Virus record (IMG/VR): IMGVR_UViG_3300003794_000021
Coordinates: 1-20,241 of that record
Length of the DNA: 20,241 nucleotides
Source of the DNA: a virus
Direction: 5' to 3' (one strand)
The position numbers and the translations under genes are program-made. Below are positions 1 to 14,060 of the stretch, in pieces (the first letter of the stretch is position 1; each line of letters begins with the position of its first letter). The notes below the pieces were generated by a model. It saw nothing but the letters and a program-made list of their open reading frames with translations, had not been told where the DNA came from and ran no database searches.

Positions 1-4
1 AACA

Positions 5-46
5 CAAAATTTGCTTGCCATGCAAATTTGTATTTGGTACAAATTG
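5..46 (+). promoter_or_regulatory. Promoter overlaid by three CAAATTTG-like palindromes
   Basis: Three near-identical palindromes lie in an AT-rich stretch: CAAAATTTG (5-13), CAAATTTG (23-30) and CAAATTG (40-46). Their centres are about 17 bp apart. Adjacent copies also pair as longer inverted repeats (AAATTTGC 7-14 with GCAAATTT 22-29; AATTTGT 25-31 with ACAAATT 39-45). A plausible promoter, TTGCCA (15-20), 17 bp, TACAAA (38-43), sits exactly among them, with its -10 inside the third palindrome. That is the layout of a repressed promoter driving the gene at 137. The repressor is not in the window; promoter strength and function are inferred. Confidence 0.5.
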
Positions 47-136
47 GATATTCCGAGAACTCCGCCCTGGCGACGCGAGCCGGGCGGGATCTCTCCCGAA
101 ATTCAATCCACCGGCTTAAGCCGCAGGAAGCTCCAG

Positions 137-550
137 ATGATTCCGATCCAAGCGACCGGTTCGGCCGGTCAGGTGACCTCGCACGTCTATACGGCCCGTC
201 GCACCGAGGCCGATCGCCGGCCGCCGCGCGCCATTCTCACCGCCCTGCTGATGGGTGATCCGCGTCCCGACCGCTACGCCGTGTCCGAGGCGATCCGCAG
301 CCGGCTGTGCGGCGCCGTGTTGGATGGGCCCGTGGTTCCCACCAAGGTGCTGGCCGTGCTGGAGGCCCTGGCCGACGGCCCCCTGACCCTGGCGGACCTG
401 GCCGACGAAATGGCCGTCAGCCTGTCGGCTGGCAGCGATCGGGCCCAGGCCGCGCGCCTGTCGGGCCTGATCGAGCGCCTGGGCGGCCGACCATGCCGGG
501 TCAGCCTGACCGCCGCCGGCCGCGCCGTCCTGGAGGAGCAGGGCGGGTGA
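137..550 (+). CDS. Winged helix-turn-helix protein, probable regulator of the phage-derived cluster
   Basis: The protein has 137 residues. I chose ATG 137 because AGGAAG lies upstream at good spacing; the frame is open further upstream, but that part runs through the AT-rich control region. The N-terminal half is basic and unrecognised. The C-terminal half (about residues 70-136) looks like a small winged helix: helix (KVLAVLEALADG), helix pair (LTLADLADEM ... AARLSGLIERLGG), then a wing and last helix (VSLTAAGRAVLEEQ), as in MarR-like folds. DNA binding is inferred from this pattern only. It is the first gene of a tight run: its TGA lies inside the GTG start of the next gene, indicating translational coupling. 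Given its position before the late tail genes it may be an activator, but the target is unknown. Confidence 0.6.
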   Translation: MIPIQATGSAGQVTSHVYTARRTEADRRPPRAILTALLMGDPRPDRYAVSEAIRSRLCGAVLDGPVVPTKVLAVLEALADGPLTLADLADEMAVSLSAGSDRAQAARLSGLIERLGGRPCRVSLTAAGRAVLEEQGG

Positions 551-762
551 GCGGCTTGCAGGAGGAGATCGCCGAGGGCGCTATCGACCGCGCCGTCCAG
601 GCCTGCGGACCGCGCAAGCCGATGCTGTGCGCGATCATCCGCGCCGCCGGTCGGATGCTGGCGGAGAGCGAAGGCCACGACTTTGTCACCCAGGTCTGCG
701 CTGGCGAAGCCCGCCGCCATGCCCTGGCTCAGAACCGACGCGGCGTCCGCTTCGGGCGCTGA
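547..762 (+). CDS. Small hypothetical protein (71 aa), second gene of the early/regulatory run
   Basis: A 71-residue protein starts at GTG 547, overlapping the previous stop in GTGA. There is no strong ribosome binding site, which fits translational coupling. The sequence is alpha-helical and charged. It contains a short hydrophobic helix around residues 22-36 (PRKPMLCAIIRAAGR), then an acidic stretch (ESEGHD), and ends basic (ARRHALAQNRRGVRFGR). I do not recognise a family. Size, charge and position between a winged-helix gene and another helical gene suggest a regulatory or accessory role. After its TGA the same frame stays open into the next gene, so the two coding regions are in phase. 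Confidence 0.5.
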   Translation: MSGLQEEIAEGAIDRAVQACGPRKPMLCAIIRAAGRMLAESEGHDFVTQVCAGEARRHALAQNRRGVRFGR

Positions 763-846
763 GCACGACATTCGAAAGAGAAGGGGATCGTCATTTCCGT
801 CCAAGTCATCCGCCCGGAGGGGCTGACCGCGTCCGAACGCGCCGAC

Positions 847-1473
847 ATGGCGCGCGCCGATCGCGCGGCCAGCCTGGCGATCAGTCCCGCCGCCCGCCAG
901 GCCGCGCGTGAGACTGTGCTGCGCATCGCCGGCGCCCAGTTGGCCCGTGCCGAGGAATCGGAGATCGCCGCTGGGCTGATCGAGACCCTGCATCTGGCCC
1001 AGGCGCGCGGCGAGGTTGTCGCCGGGGCTTCTGGCGCCGGACCCTTGCGGATTTCCACCCGCGATGGCCTGCGCAGCCTGCGCCAGGGCGATCATATCAC
1101 CGACGCCCACTACGCCGTCGGTCTCTTATACCGCGCAGGCTTCGAGGCCCGCGGCCGTGATCTGCGCGCCGCCAGCCTGGAGCCCGGTCATAAGGGCGGT
1201 CACGACAACGATCGCTTCGTCGCCGCCCGGCTGCGGCGGGCCCGGATGCTGGACTTTGTGGCCCGCGCCGATCGCGCCGTGGCGATGTCGCTGGCCGACA
1301 AGCCCATGGCCCTGCGCCTGCTGCGCGCGGTGGCGGGCGAGGGGACCAGCCTGTCGGCCTGGGGCGCGGGTCGCGCCTTCACGCGCAATCGACAAGTCCT
1401 AGTCGAGACTCTGGACCTCGTTGTGGACTTAGCCAAGCAGATTGCGCGTGATCGCAACCGTAGGAACATTTAA
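847..1473 (+). CDS. Helical protein of unknown family, possible late-gene regulator
   Basis: From ATG 847 the protein has 208 residues, but no ribosome binding site precedes that ATG. The frame is open upstream, and an ATT at 793 lies six bases after AAGGGG (781-786); starting there would add 18 residues and give 226. The protein is helical. The N-terminal half is Ala/Arg-rich; the middle carries LRQGDHITDAHYAVGLLYRAGFEARGRD, and a basic segment follows (HKGGHDNDRFVAARLRRAR). The C-terminal part (about 155-205) resembles a DNA-binding bundle, with GTSLSAWGAGRAFTRNRQ possibly a helix-turn-helix. The layout loosely recalls small alphaproteobacterial regulatory domains such as DUF6456, but I cannot assign it. 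It is the last gene before the late promoter, so control of the tail operon is a reasonable inference. Confidence 0.55.
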   Translation: MARADRAASLAISPAARQAARETVLRIAGAQLARAEESEIAAGLIETLHLAQARGEVVAGASGAGPLRISTRDGLRSLRQGDHITDAHYAVGLLYRAGFEARGRDLRAASLEPGHKGGHDNDRFVAARLRRARMLDFVARADRAVAMSLADKPMALRLLRAVAGEGTSLSAWGAGRAFTRNRQVLVETLDLVVDLAKQIARDRNRRNI

Positions 1474-1485
1474 AGAACAAATGGC

Positions 1486-1514
1486 TTGACTGTCGGGAAG
1501 GTAGATAGTCTAAT
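1486..1514 (+). promoter_or_regulatory. Near-consensus sigma70 promoter of the tail operon
   Basis: TTGACT (1486-1491), exactly 17 bp, TCTAAT (1509-1514) matches the vegetative promoter at five of six positions in each hexamer. It starts 12 bp after the stop of the preceding gene. Transcription would begin near 1521. The -10 box lies inside AGAT-N6-ATCT (1503-1516) and next to TAGA-tag-TCTA (1502-1512), short inverted repeats that could bind a regulator. This is the only good promoter before the tail genes. Confidence 0.65.
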
Positions 1515-1520
1515 CTGATC

Positions 1521-1770
1521 ATTATGGGAGGTGTGCCTTTTGCAAGGCTTTCAACCTCCGAAGACTGAAGTTCAAACCTTTGATTTTTCCGGTTTCGACG
1601 GTTCGACTTGAGCCGCGAGCCGGTCTTTGGCGACCCCCCGCAGCTCCGTCGAGGCGCGGGGGCGTCTCGCCTGCTCATCCAGGAACCTCCCACATGATCC
1701 TCGCCCCCGCAGTCGGGAGCCGCCTGGCTTCCGCGACCCGTCCGCTCGCGCCGCTGCCGGCGGACCGCCG
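1521..1770 (+). promoter_or_regulatory. Long structured 5' leader of the tail operon (possible ncRNA or antitermination element)
   Basis: About 250 bases separate the promoter from the first tail gene, with no substantial gene. The RNA would fold strongly. Hairpin 1: GGAGGT (1527-1532) pairs with ACCTCC (1554-1559), enclosing GCCTT-TTGC-AAGGC (1535-1548). Hairpin 2: CCCCCGC (1635-1641) pairs with GCGGGGG (1656-1662), with CTC/GAG inside. Hairpin 3: GTCCGC (1740-1745) pairs with GCGGAC (1760-1765). Hairpin 1 is not followed by a T tract, so it is not an ordinary terminator. A T5 run does occur later, at 1584-1588. A put-like antitermination signal, a riboregulatory leader, a separate small RNA, or a scar left by loss of head genes would all fit. 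A mini-ORF (1694-1774) lies in its 3' part. Confidence 0.4.
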
Positions 1771-1774
1771 ATGA
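1694..1774 (+). CDS. Possible 26-codon leader peptide coupled to the tail terminator gene
   Basis: ATG 1694 follows AGGAA (1681-1685) at about eight bases and opens a 26-codon frame whose TGA (1772-1774) overlaps the ATG of the tail terminator gene in ATGA. The downstream gene has no clear ribosome binding site of its own, so reading this frame could deliver ribosomes to it. The peptide (MILAPAVGSRLASATRPLAP...) resembles nothing I know. It could be the last fragment of a lost upstream head-tail gene, or chance. Confidence 0.3.
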   Translation: MILAPAVGSRLASATRPLAPLPADRR

Positions 1775-2175
1775 GCGTGCTGAAGATCCGCGCGGCGCTG
1801 GAGACGGCGCTGGCCGCGATGAGCCCGGCCCTCGCCACGGCCTGGGAGAACATCGCCTACACGCCGACGGCGGGGACGCCGTACCAGCGGGTGTCGATGC
1901 TCTTCGCCGAGCCGGCCAACACCGAGTACGGCCGAAGCTTCCAGCAAGGCGGACAGTTCGTCGTCGCCCTGTGCTGGCCGCAGGGCGCGGGCGTGGCCGA
2001 CCTGGCCGCTCGCATCGAGCTGCTGCGCTCGACCTTCTATCGCGGCGCGGCCTTCACCGCGGACGGCCTGACCACCCAGGTCGCCCGCACCCCTCTCATC
2101 CTGGCCGCGATGCTGGAGGGCGACCGCTACGTCGTGCCCGTCCAGATCCCGTTCGTGGCCACGATCACCAGCTGA
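1771..2175 (+). CDS. Phage tail terminator-like protein (DUF4128 type)
   Basis: The 134-residue protein fits the small phage family typified by DUF4128, which sits just before the tail tube gene and is taken to cap the tail tube at its head-proximal end. Supporting features are the segment TPYQRVSMLFAEPANTEYG (about residues 35-53), the alternating strand GGQFVVALCWPQGAG (about 58-72), a helix with LAARIELLRSTFY, and a C-terminal strand YVVPVQIPFVATITS. It is the first tail gene after the late promoter, and the tube gene follows after 80 bp. In a complete siphophage, head-tail connector genes would lie directly upstream; here there is a leader and regulators. The start is ATG 1771, coupled to the mini-ORF by ATGA. 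Family assignment is from pattern and order, moderately secure. Confidence 0.65.
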   Translation: MSVLKIRAALETALAAMSPALATAWENIAYTPTAGTPYQRVSMLFAEPANTEYGRSFQQGGQFVVALCWPQGAGVADLAARIELLRSTFYRGAAFTADGLTTQVARTPLILAAMLEGDRYVVPVQIPFVATITS

Positions 2176-2190
2176 CGGCGGTCTCCGCCC

Positions 2191-2207
2191 GAAGGGACGG
2201 GCCCTTC
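2191..2207 (+). other. Hairpin between tail terminator and tail tube genes
   Basis: GAAGGG-ACGGG-CCCTTC forms a six-pair stem with a five-base loop in the 80-bp gap. No T tract follows, so it is probably not a terminator. It may mark an mRNA processing or stability boundary ahead of the abundant tube message. Confidence 0.3.
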
Positions 2208-2255
2208 CGCCTCGTCTGACCCACCCCTCCCGAAAACGACAAGGAGCAGATCCCC

Positions 2256-3470
2256 ATGGCTGTCGCCCAGGGCATCAACAAGAAGACCGTCTACAAGAAG
2301 CAGACCGGCCTCGGCGCCGCCGCCACGGGCGCGGGCGGCCAGGTCGTGCGCCGCACCAGCTCGGTGTTCCAGGCCCCGCCGGACACTTTTGAAAGCAACG
2401 AAATCGTCAGCCATCAGCAGTCGACAGGCGTCGGCCTGGGCGTCGTCAAGCCGGCCGGCAAGATCGACGGCCTGCTGTCCCCGGGCACCTACGCCGCCCT
2501 GCTGGGCTCGCTGCTGCGCAAGGACATGACGGCGGGCGTTTCGGCCGCCGGCGCCACCATCACCATCGCCGCCTCAGGCCAGAACTGGACCCTGACCCGC
2601 GCTGCCGGCTCATACCTAACCGATGGCTTCAAGATCGGCGACGTGGTCCGCCTGACGGCCGGCGCCTTCAACGCCGCCAACACCCAGAAGAACCTGCTGA
2701 TCGTTGGCCTGACCGCTCTGGCGGCCACTGTCCGCGTCGTCAATGGCGCGCCGCTGGTCGCCGAGAGCAATATCGCCAGCGCCACCGTGGCGGTGACCGG
2801 CAAGAAGTCGCTGGTCCCGCTGAGCGCCCACTCGAACGACTACTACACTTTCGAGGAGTGGTATCCCGACCTCGGCCGTTCCGAAACCTATGCCGACCAG
2901 CAGGTGGGCCAGGCCGCGCTGAACCTGCCGGCTACGGGTAACGCCACCATCAGCCTGGACACGGTCGGCCGCACCCGCACGCTGGGCGCGGCCCAGGTGC
3001 TGACCTCGCCCAACGCCGAGACGGTCACTGACATCCTGACGGCCGTGAACGGCGTGATCCTGGTCAACGGCGCGCCGGTGGCCAACGTCACCGGCGCCCA
3101 GGTGACCATCAACGGCAACGCCGCCCACAGCGACGCCGTGGTTGGCTCGAACGTGGTCGACGACATCCAGCGCGGTCGCCTGGCCGTGTCGGGCAGCTTC
3201 ACCGCCAAGTTCGACAGCGTCACCCTGCAGACCATCTTCGATAATCGCTCGACCACCTCGCTGGTGCTGGCGGTGACCGAGGACGCCACGGCAAACGCCG
3301 ACTTCGTGGTCATCAACCTGCCGATGATCAAGCTGACCGGCGACACGCCCGACGACGGCGAGAAGGCGGTGATCCGGACCTATCCGTTCACGGCCCAGAT
3401 CAACAGCGCCGGCGGCGCGGCCTTGGCCACCGACCAGACCATCATCGCCATCCAGGACAGCGCCGCCTAA
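2256..3470 (+). CDS. Major tail tube protein
   Basis: This 404-residue protein would polymerise as hexameric rings around the tape measure to form the non-contractile tail tube. The start is ATG 2256 after AAGGAG at nine bases. The N-terminus (MAVAQGINKKTVYKKQTGLG...) and the segment IVSHQQSTGVGLGVVKPAGKIDGLLSPGTYAALLGSLLRKDMT are typical of siphophage tube proteins. Around residues 108-175 lies a small beta domain (GFKIGDVVRLTAGAFNAANTQKNLLIVGLTALAATVRVV), often found inserted in such tubes. The second half repeats beta structure (RGRLAVSGSFTAKFDSVTLQTIFDNRSTTSLVLAVTED) and ends with TYPFTAQINSAGG, the usual closing strand. It is followed by a terminator-like hairpin and then the tail chaperone, the normal gene order. 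No sheath protein is present, so the tail is of the flexible or siphovirus type. Confidence 0.8.
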   Translation: MAVAQGINKKTVYKKQTGLGAAATGAGGQVVRRTSSVFQAPPDTFESNEIVSHQQSTGVGLGVVKPAGKIDGLLSPGTYAALLGSLLRKDMTAGVSAAGATITIAASGQNWTLTRAAGSYLTDGFKIGDVVRLTAGAFNAANTQKNLLIVGLTALAATVRVVNGAPLVAESNIASATVAVTGKKSLVPLSAHSNDYYTFEEWYPDLGRSETYADQQVGQAALNLPATGNATISLDTVGRTRTLGAAQVLTSPNAETVTDILTAVNGVILVNGAPVANVTGAQVTINGNAAHSDAVVGSNVVDDIQRGRLAVSGSFTAKFDSVTLQTIFDNRSTTSLVLAVTEDATANADFVVINLPMIKLTGDTPDDGEKAVIRTYPFTAQINSAGGAALATDQTIIAIQDSAA

Positions 3471-3517
3471 CTGGCGCGGTCCTTTCTCCCTCCCCCTGAA
3501 GTCCCCTCAAAACTTAG

Positions 3518-3545
3518 CGGCCGGGTCGCGCCCGGCCGTCCTTTT
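3518..3545 (+). terminator. Terminator-like hairpin after the tail tube gene
   Basis: CGGCCGGG (3518-3525), loop TCGCG, CCCGGCCG (3531-3538) form a perfect eight-pair GC stem followed by TCCTTTT. It lies inside the operon, between tube and chaperone. The U tract is imperfect, so partial termination is likely, which would keep downstream products lower than the abundant tube. Alternatively it is bypassed by antitermination. Confidence 0.6.
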
Positions 3546-3558
3546 CCAAGGACAGACC

Positions 3559-4002
3559 ATGACCAAGTTCTCGACCGAAACCCTGTTCGACCTCACCGAC
3601 CTGGACGCCGTCGCCGCCGGCGACACCCCGTTCGAAATCGAGTACGTCCGCGCCGACGGCACGGGCTCCGGCGTTTTCCTGCTGGTCCTGGGCGGCCAGT
3701 CCGAGAAGGTGCAGAGCGAGGTCAATCGCCTCGTCAACGACCGCCGCAAGCGTCAGGCCGTGGCCGCCGCCATGACCGGCCGGGCCAATCCCGAGAAGGC
3801 CGACTTCACGCCGATCGAGGACGACATCGCCTTCGGCCATCGCCTGACCGCCATCCGCCTGGTCGGCTGGCGCGGCATCAAGCAGGAGTGGTCGGCCGAG
3901 AACGCCTTCCGCCTGGTCAGCCGCAATTCCGAGATCGCCGAGCAGGTCACCACGGCGTCGAACAACCTCGGAAATTTTATGCCGGGCAAGTCCGCGGCCT
4001 GA
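3559..4002 (+). CDS. Tail assembly chaperone, short product (gpG-like)
   Basis: The 147-residue product is read in the zero frame. ATG 3559 follows AAGGAC-type Shine-Dalgarno bases at seven bases. By position (tube gene before, tape measure after) and by its -1 extension it is the equivalent of lambda gpG, which coats the tape measure during tail assembly and is absent from the finished tail. Recognisable features are the N-terminal FDLTDLDAVAAGDTPFEIEYVRADGTG strand pair and FTPIEDDIAFGHRLTAIRLVGWRGIKQEWSAENAFRL (about 83-118), common in alphaproteobacterial phage chaperones. Near its end, at codons 138-140, is the slippery heptamer; without slipping, translation stops seven codons later at TGA 4000-4002. 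Confidence 0.75.
   Translation: MTKFSTETLFDLTDLDAVAAGDTPFEIEYVRADGTGSGVFLLVLGGQSEKVQSEVNRLVNDRRKRQAVAAAMTGRANPEKADFTPIEDDIAFGHRLTAIRLVGWRGIKQEWSAENAFRLVSRNSEIAEQVTTASNNLGNFMPGKSAA
3972..3978 (+). other. Programmed -1 ribosomal frameshift site (A AAT TTT)
   Basis: The zero-frame codons read GGA AAT TTT ATG, giving the perfect X-XXY-YYZ heptamer A-AAT-TTT. After a -1 slip the next codons are TAT GCC GGG, and the new frame is open to 4349. Fourteen bases downstream, CGCGGCC (3993-3999) and GGCCGCG (4011-4017) form a seven-pair GC stem whose loop contains the zero-frame stop. This matches the lambda G/GT arrangement found widely in siphophages. Confidence 0.85.
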
Positions 4003-4349
4003 TCGCCTACGGCCGCGAGCAGTTCGAGCTCGCCGGCCGGCAGGACGACGGCGAGCCGCTGCGGACGCACCTGGAGAGCCTGGCCCGCCAGGGCGATCCC
4101 GAAGCGACCTGGCGCCTCGCCCATCCGCCGGCGCTGTCGCCGCACGTCGCCCACCTGTGGGGCTGGTACGCCGACCTCTGCCAGACCCGCCAGTCCGGCG
4201 GCTTTGGCCCCTCGCGCCTGTCGCGCCTGGAAATCCAGGCCTGGGAGCGCGACGAGGGCGTGCGGCTGGAGCCGTGGGAGCGGCGGGCCCTGATGGCCCT
4301 GGACGCTGAACATCTTCTGATCATGACGGCCCCCGCCAAGGGCGGCTGA
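3978..4349 (+). CDS. Frameshift-encoded T domain of the tail assembly chaperone (gpGT-like fusion 3559-4349)
   Basis: This frame has no usable start of its own: its first ATG comes late (4290), and GTG 3888 is buried in the previous gene. It directly continues the chaperone after a -1 slip. The fusion would be 140 zero-frame residues plus 123 from this frame, 263 in all. The T part begins YAGQVRGLIAYG and contains LWGWYADLCQTRQ, then GPSRLSRLEIQAWERDEGVRLEPWERRALMALDAEHL. The Trp/aromatic segment and the closing WE-x-LD-x-L helix are typical of GT-type extensions in proteobacterial siphophages. In lambda the T part contacts the tail tube protein while G binds the tape measure. The long fusion is expected as a minor product. 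Confidence 0.8.
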   Translation, partial: YAGQVRGLIAYGREQFELAGRQDDGEPLRTHLESLARQGDPEATWRLAHPPALSPHVAHLWGWYADLCQTRQSGGFGPSRLSRLEIQAWERDEGVRLEPWERRALMALDAEHLLIMTAPAKGG

Positions 4350-4357
4350 CCACCAAC

Positions 4358-4401
4358 CGGGCTGCGCTCTCCTCGCGGGGAGCGCGGCCCGAAGCCTTTT
4401 T
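4358..4401 (+). terminator. Strong intrinsic terminator before the tape measure gene
   Basis: A 15-pair stem, 4358-4372 with 4377-4391 (two G-U pairs, TCGC loop), is followed five bases later by TTTTT (4397-4401). On sequence alone this is a good rho-independent terminator. It lies in the 64-bp gap between the chaperone and the largest gene of the operon. Either the tape measure depends on read-through or antitermination, or its message is deliberately kept low; no obvious new promoter follows. Confidence 0.7.
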
Positions 4402-4413
4402 GGGAGAGCCGTT

Positions 4414-7400: not shown

Positions 7401-9237
7401 GTTCCAGAAGGTGGGCGAAGGGGCTTTCGAGACCCTGGTCCGCGTGGCGAGGCAATATGAGGTGATCGACACGACGCTGAAGTCGGTCGGCATGACCTTC
7501 GCCACCGTGGGTGTGGCCTCGCTGGAAGCGCGTGAGCGCTTGGTCGACCTGGTCGGCGGCCTCGACAATCTTACCGACCAGACCGCCTTCTTCGCCGAGC
7601 ACTTCCTGAGCGAGGACGAGCGGCTGAAGCCGGTCAAGGACTCGGTGGCCGGCAGGTTGGCCGAGTTGAAGCTGCCCGCCGACCTGTCGCGCGACGACTT
7701 CACGGCCCTGGTCCTCAAGCAGGACGTCTCCACCCAGGCCGGCGCCGAGCTTTACGCCGCTCTGATGGCCCTGGCGCCGGCGTTCGACAAGGTGGCCACG
7801 GCCGCGGAGACCGCCCAGAAGGCGGTCAGCGACAAGAAGGCCTCCATCCAGGACCAGATTGACGCCCTGGTGCTGTCGCCGGCCGAGCAACTGTCCAAGT
7901 CCCGCAAGGCGGAGATGAAGGCGGTCACGGAACTGGACCAGGCGCTGGCGCCATTCCTGGAGACCCTGTGGAAGGCGCAGGACGCCGCCGAGGCCGCCAG
8001 GCTGGCGACCGAGCAGTCCGGCATGCGCGCGGACCTTCTGGAAGCCCAGGGACGGAGCGAGGAGGCCAAGGCGCTGCGGCGCACCCTAGCCCTGGCGGCG
8101 ATCAAGGACCCCATTCAGCAGGGTCTTCAGCAACAGATCTGGGCCGCTCAGGACGCCGCCGAGAAGGTGGCCGCCGCACGGGACGTGTTGACCCAGGCCT
8201 ATCAGCGCGAGCACGACGCTATCCAGGCGACCAAGGACAAGTTCCAGGCGCTGTCGTCGTCGCTGCGGGCGTTCAGCGCCAGCTTGACGAGCACCATCGC
8301 CGGGACGGATTTGGCCACGCGCTACCGTATGGCGCGCCAGACCTTCCAGGCGACCGCGTCCCTGGCCCGACTGGGCGACCCCGACGCCATGGGCCGGCTG
8401 CAAGCCGATGGCGAGGCCTTTACCGCCGCCTCGCGCGACTACGTCTCGACCAGCCTGGACTATCTGCGTGATGTCGGCCTGGTCCGTTCGGCCGTCGACG
8501 AGGCGGCCGACACCGCCGACCGCCAGGTCTCGATCGCCGAGCGGCAGCTGGAAGCGCTGGACGCCTCGGTTCAGGGACTGATCCAGATCAACGGCAGCGT
8601 CGTTTCGGTGCGGGACGCGATCGCGGGGCTGCAGGCGGCCAATCAGGCCGCAGCGGCGGCGGGTGTGGTCGCTGTTGGCGGCCAGCCCATCCCTGGTGCG
8701 CAGAGCAGCGCACCAAGCACGCCTTCGCTCACCAATGCGCAAAAGGAGCTGAACAACGCCGCCTTCTTCTGGGGCCTGGTCAACAGCGACATGGGGCGCG
8801 CTACAGCGAACGATCCCTCGGACATCAACACCTACGCCAAGGGAATCGCGGCCCGGTACAGCCCCGGCTACCTGGACATCGTCAACAGCCAGGGGATCGA
8901 CGCCGCCAACGCCTTGGTGGACGCCGGAAAGCTGACCTACGCGCAGGGCGGCGCGCTGAAATTCGCCACCGGCGGCGGGTTCGAGGTTGGCGGTTCCGGT
9001 CCGCCGGATTCCAAGCTTTTCAACTTGGCCCTCAGCCCGGGCGAGGCGGTCAATGTCCGCCGGGCCGACCAGAAAGACGACCCGTCCCTGATCAGTGAGC
9101 TGCGGCGCCTGCGCGAGGAGCTCGCGGACCTGCGCGCCACCAGCGCCCGGATCGCCACCAGCAACGACAAGATGGAGCGCACCTTGACCAACGTGACCGA
9201 AGGCGGCCGCGCCATGCAGACCCAGGCTGCCGCCTGA
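4414..9237 (+). CDS. Tail tape measure protein
   Basis: This 1607-residue protein starts at GTG 4414, after GGGAGAG. Tape measures set tail length and leave through the tube. Visible features: a long helical N-terminal region rich in heptads (about 1-260); hydrophobic segments at about 268-292 (PLGVILAGIAVAAAGVAAVF), 368-412 and 722-745; coiled coil around 1129-1290 (QKAVSDKKASIQDQIDALV); and the classic C-terminal motif GGGFEVGGSGPPDSKLFNLALSPGEAVNV (about 1518-1548), followed by a final coiled coil (LRRLREELADLRATSARI). I see no peptidase or lysozyme motif. Using the usual rule of about 0.15 nm per residue, the tail would be around 240 nm. Its TGA overlaps the next ATG (TGATG), so the distal tail gene is translationally coupled. 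Confidence 0.85.
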   Translation: MADKDLDELITDLKKVAVATAGLTVAQIAVKKVTDQLTATVGAFDKQVTKATKGVEDLTAKVNALNGQAGRAAGNVGDLVGRFDDLLGKLGPLSDVMTAVGDRLEVVAAMARQGSASINIHNQSLVQLQSASIAVANAQGAVSDAMGKTEAAADKSSEKLKKVHETAQELGGAMIDAVGALASGEAPMKVLTEKGGDVAKMLLKAKVDGVSLVETFKSLGLATGVLQVATTSAAAAQDVNAVSAGAATAAMEAQTVAAGELAAAESVALAPLGVILAGIAVAAAGVAAVFAIAAHDISKNAGDLTRDMGLTEEQMGRVKDKSVTMGDVAKATFETLGDSLMGAFGPGLKAIGEGFTSAYHTVTDVSLKAAAFAVGVFAGAVQAIRVAWAVLPAAMGDIIISGVNLVLDGVGKMVNGAIGLANGLIGTVNWLAKKLGLSLALPDLGQVQVAKLTNQFAGAAKSAGSAISAAFGNGFRGGFEGVMDIPGRIAGRAVEIAKDRIEKEAGAAAPHSTGASPGHDAGRKAADMIKARDYGHLDRQEPISLQQDAPVDGLRPGVFSVEGLKSFEDPISKNLDALISKLTDINKLAPELGKQFEAAFGKTGKALSDVLTSFSAYALEVAKLDRDAPGGVLTPEQQEKRTQVQIKGYAAMAGAAKGFFKENSDGYKAMQVAEIAFHTIETLNTIKSMALHGAETASAVSGEAAKQAAFSATAYAKTLSGLPFPFNLLAGAAVLAALVQAGAAIKGKPSGGGSVPGANDMKTRQDTQGAGSVLGDPKAKSESLEKALTHAQAYENKDLEYGNAMVRSLKSIDDQIGAVASALAKSFGAGGMLSTQGLNLGKTGTSATLSNLGFSKSTTRTLQDQGIQFDVATLGAIGEGGLSGSTYQQVLETTKKKAFGVTTSNKSKVITETGALDGDFLDQITKLVGSLGKGVTDAAKALKATGVEEILASFKVELGKLSFKDMTGTQIEEALNAVFGKLGDDMAKAAVPAIAQFQKVGEGAFETLVRVARQYEVIDTTLKSVGMTFATVGVASLEARERLVDLVGGLDNLTDQTAFFAEHFLSEDERLKPVKDSVAGRLAELKLPADLSRDDFTALVLKQDVSTQAGAELYAALMALAPAFDKVATAAETAQKAVSDKKASIQDQIDALVLSPAEQLSKSRKAEMKAVTELDQALAPFLETLWKAQDAAEAARLATEQSGMRADLLEAQGRSEEAKALRRTLALAAIKDPIQQGLQQQIWAAQDAAEKVAAARDVLTQAYQREHDAIQATKDKFQALSSSLRAFSASLTSTIAGTDLATRYRMARQTFQATASLARLGDPDAMGRLQADGEAFTAASRDYVSTSLDYLRDVGLVRSAVDEAADTADRQVSIAERQLEALDASVQGLIQINGSVVSVRDAIAGLQAANQAAAAAGVVAVGGQPIPGAQSSAPSTPSLTNAQKELNNAAFFWGLVNSDMGRATANDPSDINTYAKGIAARYSPGYLDIVNSQGIDAANALVDAGKLTYAQGGALKFATGGGFEVGGSGPPDSKLFNLALSPGEAVNVRRADQKDDPSLISELRRLREELADLRATSARIATSNDKMERTLTNVTEGGRAMQTQAAA

Positions 9238-10388
9238 TGCGCGCGCTTCCGCCCATTCCCATCACGCCCGCCCTCCTGACCAGCACCACCTGCGCCGAGC
9301 CGTCGGCGGGGGAGGCGGTCTGGAGCGCCGCCACGTCCTACAAGGGCGGCGACCGGGTCATCAGCACCACGACGCATCGCATCTACGAGTCGATCCCGAG
9401 CAAGAGTTCGGCGGTGATGATCACGATCAGCTCGGGGGTGATTACCTGGCCCAGCCATGGTCTGGCGGCCAATACCCCCATCACCTTTTCGACCACGGGC
9501 GGGCTGCCGTCGGGGCTGACGACGGGGACGACCTATTACGTCGTCGCCGACACGGCCAACACCTTCAAGGTCAGCGCGAGCAGCGGCGGTGGCGCGCTCG
9601 GGCTCAGCGGTTCGCAAAGCGGCGCCCACACGGCGCTGGTCAGCGTCAACCTCGGCCACGATCCGGCGACGGATACCGCGGGCTGGTGGCTCGACGTCGG
9701 CCCGACCAATCGCTGGGCCATGTTCGACCTGCTGCGCAACACCGGTACGACGACGGCCTCGCCGCTGACGGTCTCGATCACGCCGGGCCAGCGGGTGGAT
9801 TCGATCGGCGTCGTCGGCATGGTCGCCGACACCGTGACGGTCTCGGTCAAGGTGGCCGGAGCGACCGTCTACACAGCTTCGGCCAACCTGCTGAACCGGC
9901 CAACCAGCGGCTGGTACGACTACTTCTTCGGCGCGTTCCGGTATCGCCAGGAGTTCGCCCGTTTCGACCTGCCGCCCTATACCAACGCGGTCATCACCAT
10001 CACCCTGACCAAGGCCAACGGCGATGTCACCTGCGGCGGCGTGGTGCTGGGCTCGTCCGTCTATCTGGGCCGCACCCAGCACGACGCCGAGAGCGACGCG
10101 CTGAACTTCTCGAAGATCGACCGCGACGACTTCGGGACCGCCGCCCTCGTTCCCCGCCGCTCGGTGCCGCGCACCGTCCAGACCCTGCGCTGCAAGAAGA
10201 CCGACGTCGATCGGATCCTGCAGCTGCGCGACGACCTCAACGCCGTGCCGGCGCTGTGGTCGGGCCTGGACGACCAGGACAGCGGCTACTTCTCGGCCCT
10301 GCTCATCGTCGGTGTCTACAAGCGGTTCACGATCTCGATGGACCAGCCGGAAGACGCCCTGATTTCCCTCGAACTGGAAGAGGTCTGA
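9237..10388 (+). CDS. Distal tail protein with carbohydrate-binding module
   Basis: The 383-residue protein starts at ATG 9237, overlapping the tape measure stop. The N-terminus carries a chitin-binding-like module, WSAATSYKGGDRV then HRIYES (about 29-53), whose other half (HDPATDTAGWWLDVGPTNRW) appears only after residue 140. In between (about 60-133) is a beta domain of the HGL-type seen in phage fibres (WPSHGLAANTPITFSTTGGLP ... TYYVVADTANTFKVS), so one domain is inserted into another. The rest is a beta-sandwich, with YDYFFGAFRYRQEFARFDLPPY and a C-terminal module ending RFTISMDQPEDALISLELEEV. Similar proteins lie between tape measure and fibre genes in other phages and probably join tube to fibre and touch the cell surface. 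Sugar specificity is not predictable. Confidence 0.65.
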   Translation: MRALPPIPITPALLTSTTCAEPSAGEAVWSAATSYKGGDRVISTTTHRIYESIPSKSSAVMITISSGVITWPSHGLAANTPITFSTTGGLPSGLTTGTTYYVVADTANTFKVSASSGGGALGLSGSQSGAHTALVSVNLGHDPATDTAGWWLDVGPTNRWAMFDLLRNTGTTTASPLTVSITPGQRVDSIGVVGMVADTVTVSVKVAGATVYTASANLLNRPTSGWYDYFFGAFRYRQEFARFDLPPYTNAVITITLTKANGDVTCGGVVLGSSVYLGRTQHDAESDALNFSKIDRDDFGTAALVPRRSVPRTVQTLRCKKTDVDRILQLRDDLNAVPALWSGLDDQDSGYFSALLIVGVYKRFTISMDQPEDALISLELEEV

Positions 10389-10392
10389 TCCC

Positions 10393-11163
10393 GTGACCGC
10401 ACAAATCACGGCGCTCCCCACGCCGCCGTCCACCAACGACCCCGCCAACTTCAACACCCGCGCCGACGCGTTCCTGGGGCAGATGCCGACCTTCGTGACG
10501 GAGGCGAACGCGCTGGCGACCGAAGTGAATGGCCTGGCGGTTCAAGTGACCCAGGACAAAGCGGCCGCGGCGGCTTCGGCGACTACCGCCACGACCAAAG
10601 CTTCGCAGGCGGCCGACCAGGTGGGGCTGGCGGCGAATCAGGTAACGCTGGCGGCCGGCCAGGTCACGCTGGCAGCCGGCCAGGTGACACTGGCGACCAC
10701 CCAGGCGGGGATCGCGACCACCAAGGCCAACGACGCGGCCGCCATCCTGACGCAGGTCCAGAATGTCGCCTCGGGCGTGTCGTTCTCGACCAAGTCGCTG
10801 ACCTCCAACGCCATCGCGGTCGGGACCAAGACCTGGACCGTCGACAGCGGCGAGAGCTTCGTCGCGGGCATGCCGATCTATGCCGTGGCTAGCAGCGACC
10901 CGAGCCGGTTCATGGTCGGAGTCTGCACCGCCTACGCCGGCGCCACCCTGACGGTCGCCGTCACTCAGGTCTCGGCGACCACCGGCACGGTCAGCAACTG
11001 GGACATCAGCATCGGCGGCGTTCCGGGCGTTCCCGGCGCCGGCTTCCCAGCTGGCGGTCTGCCCGGCCAGCTGTTCCGCAAGAAATCCGCCGTCGATTTC
11101 GACACCGAGTGGGTCCCGGACAACGGCGGCAACCTGTTCTCCTGGCAACAACAAGGGATCTGA
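10393..11163 (+). CDS. Tail fibre protein with coiled-coil repeats
   Basis: The 256-residue protein starts at GTG 10393 after GAAGAGG. Its N-terminus, ITALPTPPSTNDPANFNTRADAFLGQMPTFVTEANALATEVN, is characteristic of the attachment end of many siphophage and prophage fibres. A central coiled coil follows: five 7-residue units of the QVTLAAG type (about 76-110), encoded by five 21-bp tandem repeats. Then comes a small beta domain (TKTWTVDSGESFVAGMPIYAVASSDPSRFMVG), a GVPGVPGAGFPAGG linker, and the end segment GQLFRKKSAVDFDTEWV that often closes phage fibres. It probably forms the trimeric shaft carrying the receptor-binding proteins encoded next. Confidence 0.7.
   Translation: MTAQITALPTPPSTNDPANFNTRADAFLGQMPTFVTEANALATEVNGLAVQVTQDKAAAAASATTATTKASQAADQVGLAANQVTLAAGQVTLAAGQVTLATTQAGIATTKANDAAAILTQVQNVASGVSFSTKSLTSNAIAVGTKTWTVDSGESFVAGMPIYAVASSDPSRFMVGVCTAYAGATLTVAVTQVSATTGTVSNWDISIGGVPGVPGAGFPAGGLPGQLFRKKSAVDFDTEWVPDNGGNLFSWQQQGI
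10618..10722 (+). repeat. Five 21-bp tandem repeats in the tail fibre gene
   Basis: Five units beginning CAGGT or CAGGC start at 10618, 10639, 10660, 10681 and 10702. Units 2 and 3 differ at two positions; the outer units are more diverged. Each encodes one heptad (QVTLAAG-like), so unit gain or loss would change fibre shaft length without shifting the frame. Confidence 0.8.
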
Positions 11164-11166
11164 TCC

Positions 11167-11562
11167 ATGGCCACCGCGCCCAATTTCGCGTCCACCACGC
11201 TGCCGCCCGACATCGTCCAGCTCACCGCCGCCAACACCAACCGCGACGGCACCGGCACGATGGTCAAGGTCGCTACCGGCACCGCCGCGGGCATCGTCAC
11301 CGAGCAGCTTCGCGTCACCGCCACCGGCAACACGACGGCGGGCATGATCCGCTTTTTCCTGTCGCTGAACGGCGGGACGTCGAAGTTCTTCCTGACCGAA
11401 ACGCCGGTGCTCGGCGCCAACCCTAGCGGCACCGCTCAGGCTTTCACCACAATCGTCGACGCCCTGACCGGCCTGACGCTTCAGGGGACGACCACCGAGC
11501 TCTACGCAGCCACCCACAACGCCGAAACCTTCAACGTCATCCACCACAAGGCGGGGCTCTAA
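11167..11562 (+). CDS. Small beta-rich structural protein of the tail tip, function unknown
   Basis: The 131-residue protein starts at ATG 11167, four bases after the fibre stop, with AAGGG upstream. It is almost wholly beta-strand with many Thr and Gly residues (VKVATGTAAGIVTEQLRVTATGNTTAGMIRFFLSLNGGTSKFFLTETPV) and has no signal peptide or membrane segment. Similar small proteins lie between fibre and adhesin genes in phages and may be fibre domains, connectors or assembly partners, but I do not recognise a named family. The next gene follows after two bases, so the three fibre genes form one translational block. Confidence 0.55.
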   Translation: MATAPNFASTTLPPDIVQLTAANTNRDGTGTMVKVATGTAAGIVTEQLRVTATGNTTAGMIRFFLSLNGGTSKFFLTETPVLGANPSGTAQAFTTIVDALTGLTLQGTTTELYAATHNAETFNVIHHKAGL

Positions 11563-11564
11563 GC

Positions 11565-12695
11565 ATGGCTATTCCGAGTAGTTCTAATCGCGGTGTTTTG
11601 GGGCGAATTGGGGCGACGCAGGGGGCTGGTGCGGCCACTTCGGTAGTCGGACAGTCGACCGGTCCAGCCTTCGTTACCGCTTCGGGAATCCCACCGTTGG
11701 GGTGGTTAGGCATCTTCAACACAGGTCGATACTTGACCTTCCTTGATAGCGGGACATTCACGGCGCCGGTCTCTGGCTACTATCGCGTCCGTGTACTAGG
11801 CGCAGGTGGGAGTGGAGCAACGATCAGTGGCACAATGAAAAGAGCCACTGGCGGCGGTGGCGGCGGCTACTCGATGGGTACGATTTGGCTAACGCAAGGA
11901 CAGAGCATTCCGGTCACAGTGGGAAAAGGCGGCGTCTGGAGTGGTGATGGCCAGCCGGGGAGCGTGGGCGGAACCTCCACCTTTGGAGCTTACATATCCG
12001 CTACAGGCGGTGCAGGCGGCCTCTGCGCGGACGCCGCAAAGGCGGTTGCAGGTGCTCTTGGAGGCGTCGGTACGGGTGGAAGCTTGATCAACGCCAATGG
12101 CGGCAAGTCCGGCTCGATCGACGCCAACGCAGGCTACTCCGCGAGCGGCGGCGGAGGCGCGGGCTCGCAGCTCGGTCATGGCGGAGACTCGGGATCGATC
12201 AGCGGCGGCGCAAGCAACAACAATGCTGCGACGGGCGGCGGGGGCGTCGGGGGGGCTACTTCGGCCAGCATCATACGAGGAAGCGAGCAGGCAACGGGGG
12301 GAGCCGGTGTTGCCAGCGCTTCGACTGCGCTGCTCGGTGGTTTTGACCTGTTGTCCGTCGGAGCGAACCTGAACATCAACGGTACCGTCAATTCCAGCAG
12401 CGCGGCTTTTCGCTTTCCCGGCGACGGCTTCGCGGGCGGCGGCGGCGGCCCCAACTACCATACCACGTCTAATGGTGGCATCGGCGGCACAGGAGCCGGC
12501 GGTGGCGCGACCATTGCATCAAACGGTACATGCACGTCTGGGGCTGGCGGTGTGTTCGGTGGAGCCGGCGCTGCCGCTAGTGCTAACGCCACCATTGCAC
12601 CAAAACCAGGCTTCGGCGGCGGCGGGGGCGGCGCTGCGTGTAACGGTGGCGGCCAATCGACCGGCGGCGACGGCCTGATTGTTGTCGAGTGGTAG
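11565..12695 (+). CDS. Glycine-rich receptor-binding tail adhesin
   Basis: The 376-residue protein starts at ATG 11565. The first 65 residues look like an attachment region. Then FLDSGTFTAPVSGYYRVRVLGAGGSG is the usual entry to glycine-rich phage tail-tip domains. From about residue 95 to the end the protein is dominated by GGGG, GGAGG and GGIGG runs separated by variable Ser/Thr/Asn loops, and closes with GGDGLIVVEW, a typical last strand. Such polyglycine domains, as in T-even gp38-like adhesins, present variable loops to the host receptor. DNA composition differs from neighbours: 11701-11760 has 29 G/C of 60, against 44 of 60 at 10141-10200. The rare leucine codons TTA (11706) and CTA (11796) also occur, suggesting exchange of this module. 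It is probably the host- or target-range determinant. Confidence 0.7.
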   Translation: MAIPSSSNRGVLGRIGATQGAGAATSVVGQSTGPAFVTASGIPPLGWLGIFNTGRYLTFLDSGTFTAPVSGYYRVRVLGAGGSGATISGTMKRATGGGGGGYSMGTIWLTQGQSIPVTVGKGGVWSGDGQPGSVGGTSTFGAYISATGGAGGLCADAAKAVAGALGGVGTGGSLINANGGKSGSIDANAGYSASGGGGAGSQLGHGGDSGSISGGASNNNAATGGGGVGGATSASIIRGSEQATGGAGVASASTALLGGFDLLSVGANLNINGTVNSSSAAFRFPGDGFAGGGGGPNYHTTSNGGIGGTGAGGGATIASNGTCTSGAGGVFGGAGAAASANATIAPKPGFGGGGGGAACNGGGQSTGGDGLIVVEW

Positions 12696-12719
12696 CCAGG
12701 CCAAGCGAAAGCTAACCCC

Positions 12720-13154
12720 ATGGACATCCCCACCCTGATCGCCAAGTCGTGGCCCTACGTCGTGGTGGCCGCGCCGGGGATCTATGCGGTGGTCAAGGAC
12801 CTCCTCGGCCGGCGGGCGATCGCTCGCAAGGCCGAGGCGGACTTGATGCAGATGGCGCAGGACGCCGCCTCCGGGGTGATCCACACCTTGCGCGAGGAGG
12901 CCGAACGCCTGGCCCAGCGCCTCGAACAGGTCGAGGCCGAGCTGGGCGACCTGCGCCGCGAGCATAGCCGCATGATCCTGGACAAGGACGCCCGCATCGC
13001 CCTCCTGGAAGGCGAGAAGCGGCAGCTGGAGGCCAGGGTCTCGGCCTATCGCCGGATCCTGGCCGCCAACGGCCTGGCCGACGAGCCGGCCTCCCAGCAC
13101 TTCGAGGTGGCGGCCGGCGACAAGCCGGTCGTCATCCCCGCGGCGGTCGGCTGA
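12720..13154 (+). CDS. Membrane-anchored coiled-coil protein of the lysis region
   Basis: The 144-residue protein starts at ATG 12720 with a weak ribosome binding site. One hydrophobic segment (about 10-29, SWPYVVVAAPGIYAVVKDLL) is followed by a basic patch (GRRAIARKAEA) and a long heptad coiled coil (about 50-122, IHTLREEAERLAQRLEQVEAELGDLRREHSRM). Its place just before the endolysin suggests lysis: an i-spanin or a holin-associated protein. However, the positive-inside rule with RRxxxRK after the membrane segment favours a cytoplasmic C-terminus, the opposite of an i-spanin. I therefore leave the role open. No multi-span holin is visible nearby. Confidence 0.55.
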   Translation: MDIPTLIAKSWPYVVVAAPGIYAVVKDLLGRRAIARKAEADLMQMAQDAASGVIHTLREEAERLAQRLEQVEAELGDLRREHSRMILDKDARIALLEGEKRQLEARVSAYRRILAANGLADEPASQHFEVAAGDKPVVIPAAVG

Positions 13155-13186
13155 CCGCCTGAATCCCACAACAAAGGAGCCCACCC

Positions 13187-13729
13187 ATGCCCACGCCCTC
13201 GGCGCGGGACGTTCCCGCCTGCGCGCTGGCTTTGATCCAGAGGTTCGAGGGACTGCACGACGGCGACAAGAAGACCGCCTTGCTGGAGCCCCAGGCCGAT
13301 CCCGTCGGGATCTACACCGTCGGCTGGGGGCACGCCCTGTTCGCTGGCGGACGGCCGGTGAAGGATCGCGAGTATGCCTATCGGCTGTGGCGCGCGCGCT
13401 GGCCGGCCGGCATGGTTCGGGCCGACGCCGACGCGCTGCTGAAGGCCGACGCGCAAGCCGTGTGCGACAAGGTCGTCGCGCTGTTTCCCACGACCCGGCT
13501 GAGCGACGGCCAGCTGGGGGCCATGGTCAGCCTGGCCTATAACATCGGCGTCGGCGAGGTCGGCGGCGCGTCGGACTTTGCCGACAGCAGCGTGCGCCGG
13601 CGGCTGATCGCCGGCGACGTCCAGGGCGCGGGCGACGCCTTCCGGATGTGGCGCTTCGCCGGCGGTCGCGAACTGCCGGGCCTCGTCGCCCGCCGCGAGG
13701 CCGAGCGCGCGGTCTTCCTGGGTCGCTGA
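13187..13729 (+). CDS. Endolysin, GH24 lysozyme (muramidase)
   Basis: The 180-residue protein starts at ATG 13187 after AAGGAG. It would cut the N-acetylmuramic acid to N-acetylglucosamine bond of peptidoglycan at the end of the cycle. The T4-lysozyme-like catalytic triad is visible: Glu21 (QRFEG), Asp38 (ADPVGIYTVGWGH) and Thr44 of the same motif, with the usual six-residue Asp-Thr spacing. The Glu-Asp spacing is longer than in T4 lysozyme. Further family features are LSDGQLGAMVSLAYNIGVG (about 105-123) and the C-terminal FAGGRELPGLVARREAERAVFL (about 156-177). It has no signal peptide or SAR segment, so export would need a holin, which I do not see. Its presence supports release by lysis. 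Confidence 0.85.
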   Translation: MPTPSARDVPACALALIQRFEGLHDGDKKTALLEPQADPVGIYTVGWGHALFAGGRPVKDREYAYRLWRARWPAGMVRADADALLKADAQAVCDKVVALFPTTRLSDGQLGAMVSLAYNIGVGEVGGASDFADSSVRRRLIAGDVQGAGDAFRMWRFAGGRELPGLVARREAERAVFLGR

Positions 13730-13760
13730 GCCCAAACGTCCAACCCTGAAGGAGTCTTCG

Positions 13761-14060
13761 ATGAAACACGTCATCGCCCCGATGGCGGGCCTTGCGCTGC
13801 CCGTTCTTCTATCGGGCTGCGCCGGCCTGACCGCCGATCCCGCCGCCCTGGCCCAGGCCGTCAGGATCCTGAACGAGGGCTGCCAGCGCACCGTCGACCT
13901 GACGCTGGACAACAGCCAGCCCCGCGGCGGCTCGCTGAGAGTGACCCGCGCCTGCGCGCCGGCCGGGCTATCGGGTCCTAAACCTAGCGGCCAAAAAGAA
14001 CCCCTGCCGGACGGATCCGACAGGGGGGCTGCAGGCTTTGGGGAAGAGGTCGGTCACTAG
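13761..14060 (+). CDS. Small lipoprotein, possible o-spanin
   Basis: The 99-residue protein starts at ATG 13761 after AAGGAG. A lipoprotein signal is clear: Lys2, a hydrophobic stretch and the lipobox LLSGC, with Cys20 as lipid anchor. The mature part has two more cysteines (GCQRTVDL and RACAPAG). Position after the lysozyme suggests an outer-membrane spanin, though it is not proline-rich and its partner is uncertain. From about residue 70 the reading frame runs through the malA transcription terminator (13993-14026), and its TAG overlaps the malA stop codon on the other strand within CTAG (14057-14060). The last 25-30 residues are therefore encoded by host-locus DNA, and the original C-terminus may have been lost. 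Confidence 0.6.
   Translation: MKHVIAPMAGLALPVLLSGCAGLTADPAALAQAVRILNEGCQRTVDLTLDNSQPRGGSLRVTRACAPAGLSGPKPSGQKEPLPDGSDRGAAGFGEEVGH
13993..14026 (-). terminator. Intrinsic terminator of malA
   Basis: Read on the - strand, CCCCTGTCGGA-TCCG-TCCGGCAGGGG forms an 11-pair stem (one G-U pair) over 14026-14001, followed at once by TTCTTTTT (14000-13993). It lies 31 bases past the malA stop. On the + strand the stem has a C-A mismatch and no T tract, so it should not stop the phage-side operon. Confidence 0.75.

Follow-up and report, generated by a model that had tools for sequence, protein, structure and literature searches.

A candidate F-type-like tailocin locus held at one chromosomal site in Caulobacter

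A tail-and-lysis locus without head genes

We analysed a virus record of 20,241 bp (IMGVR_UViG_3300003794_000021, hereafter the window), most of whose left part is contained, as delimited by comparison with related genomes, in an element of about 14.8 kb that begins about 0.8 kb left of the window. We read this element as probably a tailocin locus of Caulobacter of F-type-like (siphovirus-derived, non-contractile) kind, inherited vertically at one chromosomal site. In order, it carries a small open reading frame (ORF) and an XRE repressor gene (both left of the window), the helix-turn-helix (HTH), 71-amino-acid (71-aa) and GafZ-like regulators and a late promoter, followed by the tail terminator, tube, −1-frameshift chaperone, tape measure, distal protein, fibres, coiled-coil membrane protein, lysozyme and lipoprotein (Table 1). 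As far as the sequences indicate, it has what characterizes an F-type tailocin: lysis genes (lysozyme, lipoprotein) and regulators of its own, an intact shared locus (seven genomes, the G005 contig being incomplete, and one deletion derivative), and variable fibres of at least three cassette types with predicted receptor binding. Particle assembly, killing, trigger, activation and antitermination are inferred.

The tail-and-lysis gene set proposed in a preliminary description of the window was borne out by family matches for the terminator, tube, chaperones, tape measure, a fibre-cassette protein and the lysozyme. Head, integrase, replication and sheath genes had been reported missing, and scanning of the 17 window proteins likewise gave no convincing terminase, portal, protease, capsid, integrase, replication or sheath match; the tail genes are of siphovirus type, and one weak ‘head scaffolding’ match (E 0.02) fell on the coiled-coil protein at 12720. 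The large frames are open as described, including the tape measure, and the compared frames are open in seven genomes; two counted ‘internal stops’ in the holin-like and lipoprotein alignments turned out on translation to be intact frames ending at slightly different points. The frameshift heptamer A_AAT_TTT, already recognized as perfect, also lies in frame in 9 of the 12 other genomes scanned (all seven genomes sharing the site described below, BP25 and G006) and was not found by pattern in G209, G237 and G358. A long open tape measure frame of varying length is present in 8 genomes, with stop-to-stop frames of 1391 to 1808 codons at the shared site. By the rule of thumb of about 0.15 nm of tail per tape measure residue, the 1607-aa protein would give a tail of about 240 nm.

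With a tube profile, 22 loci were detected in contigs of GTDB genomes, and 15 of 390 Caulobacteraceae genomes gave a match. Seven of the 15 carry the cluster at the same place, which we call site A: G229, G218, G228, G002 (Caulobacter sp. 602-1), G001 (metagenome-assembled genome (MAG) BIN43), G003 (sp. Root343) and G005 (a Caulobacterales MAG). These genomes keep the gene order of the window; the fibre cassette is an exception, as is the holin-like gene in G001. All seven share the left-flank host genes glmU, rpiA, gor, panD and a SIMPL-like gene (names read from sequence) with a tRNA-Met (ARAGORN), and in six the right flank is of identical type, a receptor and amylases; in the window, a TonB-dependent receptor and two alpha-amylases follow the element.

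Leftward extension and comparison of synteny had both been suggested as checks of headlessness, and both upheld it. Contig L002, which is 100% identical to the window across 13.5 kb and may represent the same population, extends 2.4 kb further left and shows the small ORF, the divergent 114-aa XRE-type repressor and then other ORFs; L003 (87% identical DNA) extends 5.3 kb further left, through the repressor to host-like genes (by eye) and tRNA-Met (ARAGORN). A head module directly left of the window was thus rejected, both contigs showing the repressor and then host-like genes. A search with 21 head proteins (from prophages L167 and G237, phage DMCA, and BP25) found no match in 40 kb around six of the site-A clusters and 26.7 kb around the seventh, and across relatives only G217 has lost the tail block. 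The same search matched 15 of 33 sequences, including G237, G349, G209, L007, L009, L014 and DMCA, with G237 and DMCA being partly sources of the queries; the 18 without a head match were the window, L002, L003, L006, the seven site-A genomes, G217, G006 with L087 (one genome), G358, L092, L094 and L099.

The site also exists vacant. Seven of 11 further receptor loci (G264, G216, G273, G245, G230, G004, G269) lack the cluster but have the receptor, the tRNA-Met, the SIMPL-like gene and panD, and one of them, G004 (Caulobacter sp. BP25), has a headless cluster elsewhere. The loci of G272, G224, G221 and G232 showed no SIMPL/panD neighbourhood in the fetched stretch and were not counted as vacant. 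Homology between occupied sites and the loci of G004 and G245 breaks off at the tRNA-Met 3' end or a few bases from it, whereas G216 shares about 1.2 kb beyond tRNA-Met with G002, G218 and G003. From these ends we place the element length at about 14.8 kb (measured from G218 against vacant sites) and its right edge in the window near 13,985; the final ~20 codons of the ‘lipoprotein’ ORF are therefore flanking DNA, so that the lipoprotein described earlier stands and its extension to 14060 does not. The ancestor may have integrated near tRNA-Met.

Purifying selection and divergence in step with the host

Across 13 genes (5–7 genomes each), the median pairwise ratio of nonsynonymous to synonymous substitution (dN/dS) was 0.06–0.44, host controls giving 0.075 and 0.20. 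Medians were 0.058 for the repressor, 0.21 for the GafZ-like gene, 0.16 for the tube, 0.17 for the lysozyme, 0.44 for the tape measure and 0.42 for the lipoprotein. Ratios were computed for the window versus each genome on the best aligned stretches, with the tape measure partial in several and the fibres left out. By this measure the 13 tested genes are under purifying selection, which with the open frames agrees with the earlier claim that selection keeps the cluster rather than letting it decay. Six genomes (15 pairs) were compared at 6 host and 8 cluster genes. Divergence was 0.080–0.124 for host and 0.043–0.133 for cluster genes, and the distance matrices were correlated (Mantel r 0.82, a value reached by 2 of 720 permutations), indicating that cluster and host genes diverge in step.

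These results bear on whether the locus is a decaying prophage remnant that has kept tail and lysis genes by chance. The locus could plausibly descend from a prophage near tRNA-Met, the window proteins show no integrase match, and G217 has a large deletion at the same site. Against decay stand the open frames, the median dN/dS well under 1 in the 13 tested genes, the conservation of the operator block, frameshift heptamer and leader hairpin, and the divergence parallel to the host; we regard a chance remnant as improbable.

A probable distant GafZ homologue and the late leader

The XRE repressor gene is divergent and starts 41 bp left of the window. Between it and the HTH regulator gene, the candidate operator block has 49 of 58 core columns invariant versus 93 of 157 in the remaining aligned stretch (L002, standing for the window, and seven genomes), and it holds the inverted repeats AAATTTGC-N7-GCAAATTT and ATTTG-N3-CAAAT. 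The HTH regulator has orthologues in 7 genomes and homologues in the headed prophages G237 (46%) and L167 (38%). The 71-aa protein, which has no Pfam match, is 87–93% identical in 7 genomes and 51% in prophage L167 (median dN/dS 0.18). Fusion of its ORF to the activator gene was considered and rejected, since the relative frames of the two differ among genomes.

The third regulator is probably a distant homologue of GafZ/DUF6456, the activator of gene transfer agents (GTAs). The Pfam scan gave no match to it. In hhalign comparison with DUF6456 (PF20057), wide profiles gave a probability of 93.4 (E 2.5e-7; controls 0.1–0.2), narrower ones 28–38% and the smallest (9 versus 5 sequences) 0.1%. One ORF of G204 was matched by both profiles in the same frame (activator E 1.8e-7; DUF6456 28.2 bits versus a cut-off of 26.3). 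An AlphaFold model of the activator (pLDDT, the predicted local distance difference test, 75) had as its best viral fold match in BFVD a DUF6456 phage protein (E 0.003, probability 1.00, template modelling (TM) score 0.42); the PDB fold search returned nothing at E <= 0.001. The activator profile matched in 65 of 390 Caulobacteraceae genomes. Nine of these matches are close (in the seven site-A genomes, in BP25 and in G217), the others weaker; the phage collection gave no protein-level match. A weaker match in G352 sits upstream of terminase-like genes in a phage (by eye).

In the GTA literature, GafA is linked to DUF6456 (PMC9638019), GafY has a DnaA-like domain (PMC9632790), and GafZ moves with RNA polymerase and permits read-through of a terminator near the GTA operon start (PMC11150451). 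No DnaA-type, GafY-like partner was matched among the window regulators; PF08299 matches in G002, G004, G218, G228 and G229 lie elsewhere in the genome and not in the tail locus, and in G002, G004 and G229 a DUF6456 protein adjoins a DnaA_C protein, as described for GafY–GafZ. In G228 (C1 1368728-1376064), two small DnaA_C (GafY-like) genes precede a terminase match by 4–6 kb and may mark a further prophage that has such a regulator.

Translation of the activator most likely starts at ATT 793 rather than at ATG 847. Over 12 copies the start codon is ATT in 10, ATC in L003 and ATG in G217, and AAGGGGA stands 5–6 nt before it in all 12. Within 25 codons upstream, an in-frame GTG or CTG occurs in L006 only. 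Downstream, an ATG lies 18 codons in (window, G001, G005) or a GTG two codons in (G218), and the 29 codons after the start are free of ATG, GTG and TTG in L004, G229, G228, G002 and G003. AUU start codons are known from infC and pcnB. The AUG start coincides with loss of the tail and lysis genes in G217, which is suggestive as one case.

The late promoter had been described as strong and as opening directly onto the tail terminator gene. The second point did not hold: a leader of about 250 nt with a conserved hairpin separates promoter and gene. As to the first, the 19-nt spacing between −35 and −10 would point to activator dependence rather than strength. The hairpin lies about 150 nt before the terminator gene start codon, and its stem covaries on both sides over 9 sequences, one pair being C-G, A-T or G-C and another G-C, T-A or C-G (pairs were taken from folds, the MAFFT alignment having misplaced loops). 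G229 has no clear counterpart of it. Out of 40 simple shuffles, the number matching the best leader hairpin was 0 for the window, 2 for G229, 5 for G218, 1 for G228, 0 for G001 and 5 for G003; as several shuffles were as strong, hairpin strength alone is not decisive and the compensatory changes are the evidence. The hairpin is a candidate terminator or antitermination target, and GafZ-style read-through may, by analogy, apply to the Caulobacter tail locus.

We propose that the XRE repressor closes the divergent operator and that, on its relief, the HTH, 71-aa and GafZ-like genes would be expressed, the GafZ-like level being held low by the AUU start codon. The activator would then switch on the 19-nt-spaced late promoter and let RNA polymerase past the leader hairpin, as GafYZ does at the GTA operon. 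Headless tails of about 200–260 nm would be assembled, the lysis genes would burst the producer cell, and exchangeable fibres would aim the tails at related bacteria, which would die.

Exchangeable fibres and evidence weighing against a tailocin

At least three fibre cassette types occur at the same locus: three proteins in the window, G229 and G228, a single ~540-aa fibre with a shared N-terminus in G218, G002 and G003, and a different protein set in G001. A tail co-opted for a non-killing use, such as programmed lysis releasing DNA or vesicles, or adhesion, would accord with the lysis genes and with the tape measure and fibres having no toxin-domain match in family scans of the window proteins. 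Cassette exchange at a fixed locus is, by contrast, a prediction of receptor-directed antagonism, and we hold the non-killing use to be distinctly improbable.

Several observations weigh against the tailocin reading. It draws on gene evidence, from which particle, induction and killing are predicted. The kinship of the activator to GafZ varies with profile breadth across the three probabilities given above. Fibre annotation depends on weak matches, one alternative fibre and a 431-aa protein having no family match, and the highest dN/dS values belong to the tape measure and lipoprotein, with the fibres outside the tested set. The G005 contig stops in the fibre region, its lysozyme beyond view; its receptor, on another contig, again adjoins the lipoprotein gene. 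G217 (L198, L199), which has no tube match, keeps the repressor, HTH and GafZ-like genes and then only the lipoprotein at the same site, with a short stretch between regulators and lipoprotein ~67–70% like the vacant site of other genomes; loss of the tail block there means that it is dispensable. BP25 (L139-L140) has a diverged headless cluster at another site with a different repressor, which implies that the locus moved or recombined.

Probable loss of heads among related prophages

Head markers occur in 5 of the 15 tube-positive Caulobacteraceae genomes, G209, G237, G349, G240 and G330 (neck and connector only), and 10 have no head upstream (the seven site-A genomes, BP25, G006, G358). The head profiles were grown from head proteins of three phage types; G006 and G358 were scored headless after reading the upstream ORFs, their contigs ending soon after the tube, L005 from alignment to the window, and L004 and L006 from that alignment plus short upstream DNA. 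In a tube tree of 75 rows, 15 of them headless, three changes of the headless label are required; starred branches force them, and their number stays the same over the 5–95% bootstrap range. The BP25 tube falls inside the site-A clade. The tree took 75 of 109 full-length tubes, leaving out duplicates, rows with too little upstream DNA and ‘none’ rows without proof of headlessness (L040, L044, L045, L048, L064, L070, L092, L094, L099, L102); by eye, ORFs upstream of the tube look head-like in L092 and L094. The program notes that the changes could be one gain and two losses; we read them as three head losses because headed phages are the wider background.

Prophage L167 has the order HTH gene, 71-aa ORF, DnaB-like gene (by eye), GafZ-like gene, TerS, TerL, portal, protease, capsid, neck, terminator and tube, and the headless locus looks like this arrangement without its replication and head blocks. 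The neck gene that adjoins the terminator in headed relatives is missing from it. Its absence counts against a tail donor, whose tails would join heads from the GTA or another phage as a split particle half or satellite-like helper. All nine genomes searched do have a terminase match (phrog_2), a second, stronger one is present in G002, G004, G228 and G229, and the headless cluster of BP25 lies about 11 kb from a terminase gene read as the GTA's. G001, G003, G005 and G218, however, have a sole phrog_2 match above 30 bits (55–64 bits, read as the GTA's); within this family, a second phage supplying heads is therefore not general, and we rejected it as such. The GTA of Caulobacter (CcGTA) also possesses its own tail. 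A phrog_169 neck search of the nine genomes matched nowhere, controls included, and is uninformative. We judge a tail donor very improbable.

Returning to the tailocin reading, we offer with somewhat less than even confidence a wider picture in which Caulobacter has two domesticated particles, DNA-carrying GTAs and headless killing tails, each with a GafZ-family activator. The suicidal switch would have a translational safety catch (an AUU/AUC start in 11 of 12 copies, AUG only where tail and lysis genes are lost) and a leader terminator passable solely via activator antitermination, and such tails would have arisen about three times in Caulobacteraceae by losing the head block between activator and tail terminator.

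Relation to known systems

The closest headed relatives are the prophages L167 (IMGVR_UViG_2919784490) and G237 and phage DMCA, with related tubes (~48–66% identity). L167 shares the regulator order and G237 the HTH gene; L167 differs in its complete head module between activator and tail terminator, and G237 and DMCA have heads too. In the phage collection there was no near match besides DMCA (one record, three places, best 3% of the query).

F-pyocins have a lambda-related tail and other regulators than the Caulobacter locus, as compared by description. The F-pyocin of Pseudomonas aeruginosa likewise has regulators, non-contractile tail and lysis genes and no head. It is mentioned in PMC10811719, whose authors call rhizoviticin of Allorhizobium vitis the first alphaproteobacterial tailocin. 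Rhizoviticin is an F-type tailocin whose prophage region, like the Caulobacter locus, has regulators, tail genes and lysis genes but no head, while related prophages retain heads. It keeps an integrase remnant, a DnaA-HTH gene and replication genes, and it is SOS-induced under a LexA-family repressor; compared by that description, the Caulobacter locus differs in its 114-aa XRE repressor, in that those early genes were not found, and in its fixed site over several species.

In CcGTA, controlled by RogA/GafYZ (PMC11150451, PMC9632790), a repressor likewise governs an activator operon, and a GafZ-family activator (here a probable one) acts on one long late operon that has a terminator-like element close to its start. 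RogA is LexA-like (213 aa), whereas the XRE, HTH and 71-aa proteins look like other families, and the Caulobacter locus differs further in that no DnaA-type GafY partner and no head genes were found; as a test for a GTA, capsid, terminase and portal genes were not found in the cluster.

No tailocin or headless tail in Caulobacter, nor this locus, appeared among the literature matches listed. Newly described here are the probable distant GafZ-homologue activator, its AUU start codon, the covarying late-leader hairpin and the presence of at least three fibre cassette types. As Caulobacter is a genetically tractable model genus, tailocin origin, control and cost could be tested beside the GTA in one cell; head-bearing relatives, headless relatives, vacant sites and a deletion derivative make up a fairly complete series that leads from prophage to domesticated tail.

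Further features of the locus

Table 1. Predicted features of the element in the window, with the evidence for each.
Feature	Position	Strand	Evidence or remarks
Divergent promoter/operator block between XRE repressor and HTH regulator	1..58	.	AT-rich; putative operator
Small winged-HTH-like regulator, 137 aa	137..550	+	Weak MarR/HTH matches below cut-off
71-aa conserved small protein	547..762	+	GTG start; conservation; role unassigned
GafZ/DUF6456-like activator, 226 aa	793..1473	+	ATT start codon, AAGGGGA ribosome site; hhalign, fold match
Late promoter-like block	1486..1516	+	TTGACT and TAATCT separated by a 19-nt spacer in which CGGGAAGGTA is largely conserved; window aligned with 7 genomes
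Leader stem-loop	1629..1671	+	Compensatory base changes among relatives; candidate terminator/antitermination target
Tail terminator	1771..2175	+	PF13554 (E 4e-21), phrog_179
Tail tube	2256..3470	+	PF18906 (3e-21), phrog_290 (5e-41)
Tail assembly chaperone, upstream frame	3559..4002	+	phrog_313 (4e-8)
−1 slippery heptamer A_AAT_TTT	3972..3978	+	In frame, conserved
Tail assembly chaperone, −1 frame extension	4011..4349	+	PF23812 (1e-13)
Tape measure protein, 1607 aa	4414..9237	+	Open frame; phrog_7740 (7e-48)
Distal tail/adhesin-type protein	9237..10388	+	Unnamed phage family phrog_6278 (8e-64); position after tape measure
Fibre 1	10393..11163	+	N-terminus conserved, C-terminus variable; phrog_13980
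Fibre-cassette protein 2	11167..11562	+	Among 7 genomes, matches only in G229, G228
Gly-rich fibre/tip protein 3	11565..12695	+	phrog_863 ‘tail fiber assembly’ (5e-19)
Holin or inner-spanin candidate	12720..13154	+	One N-terminal hydrophobic segment, likely coiled coil (sequence, hydropathy); weak family matches
Phage lysozyme (endolysin)	13187..13729	+	PF00959 (1e-25), phrog_7
Lipoprotein, outer-spanin-like	13761..13985	+	LSGC lipobox; ORF continues to 14060; relatives' versions stop earlier

The lipoprotein may act as the outer spanin. The AlphaFold model of the distal protein was poor (pLDDT 56) and was not used, and an Rfam search of the window gave no match. A single-sequence chaperone search of 398 genomes of the order matched 3 (G002, G229, G004) and adds nothing on headlessness.

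Outside site A, G358 (L147) has a headless arrangement after tRNA-Lys in which three similar 267–269-aa proteins precede the terminator, the contig ending past the tube/chaperone region. The arrangement in G006 / L087 is headless too; its repressor is longer and by eye LexA/CI-like, and there is a weak match to the GafZ-like activator (E 3e-5). In phage DMCA (L104 355-802), a chaperone-like sequence lies near the record start, apart from tube and tape measure. A 395-aa lipoprotein-like gene (G228 region 30798-31985; L273) is found at the right edge of some occupied and some vacant sites and is absent in others, including the window.

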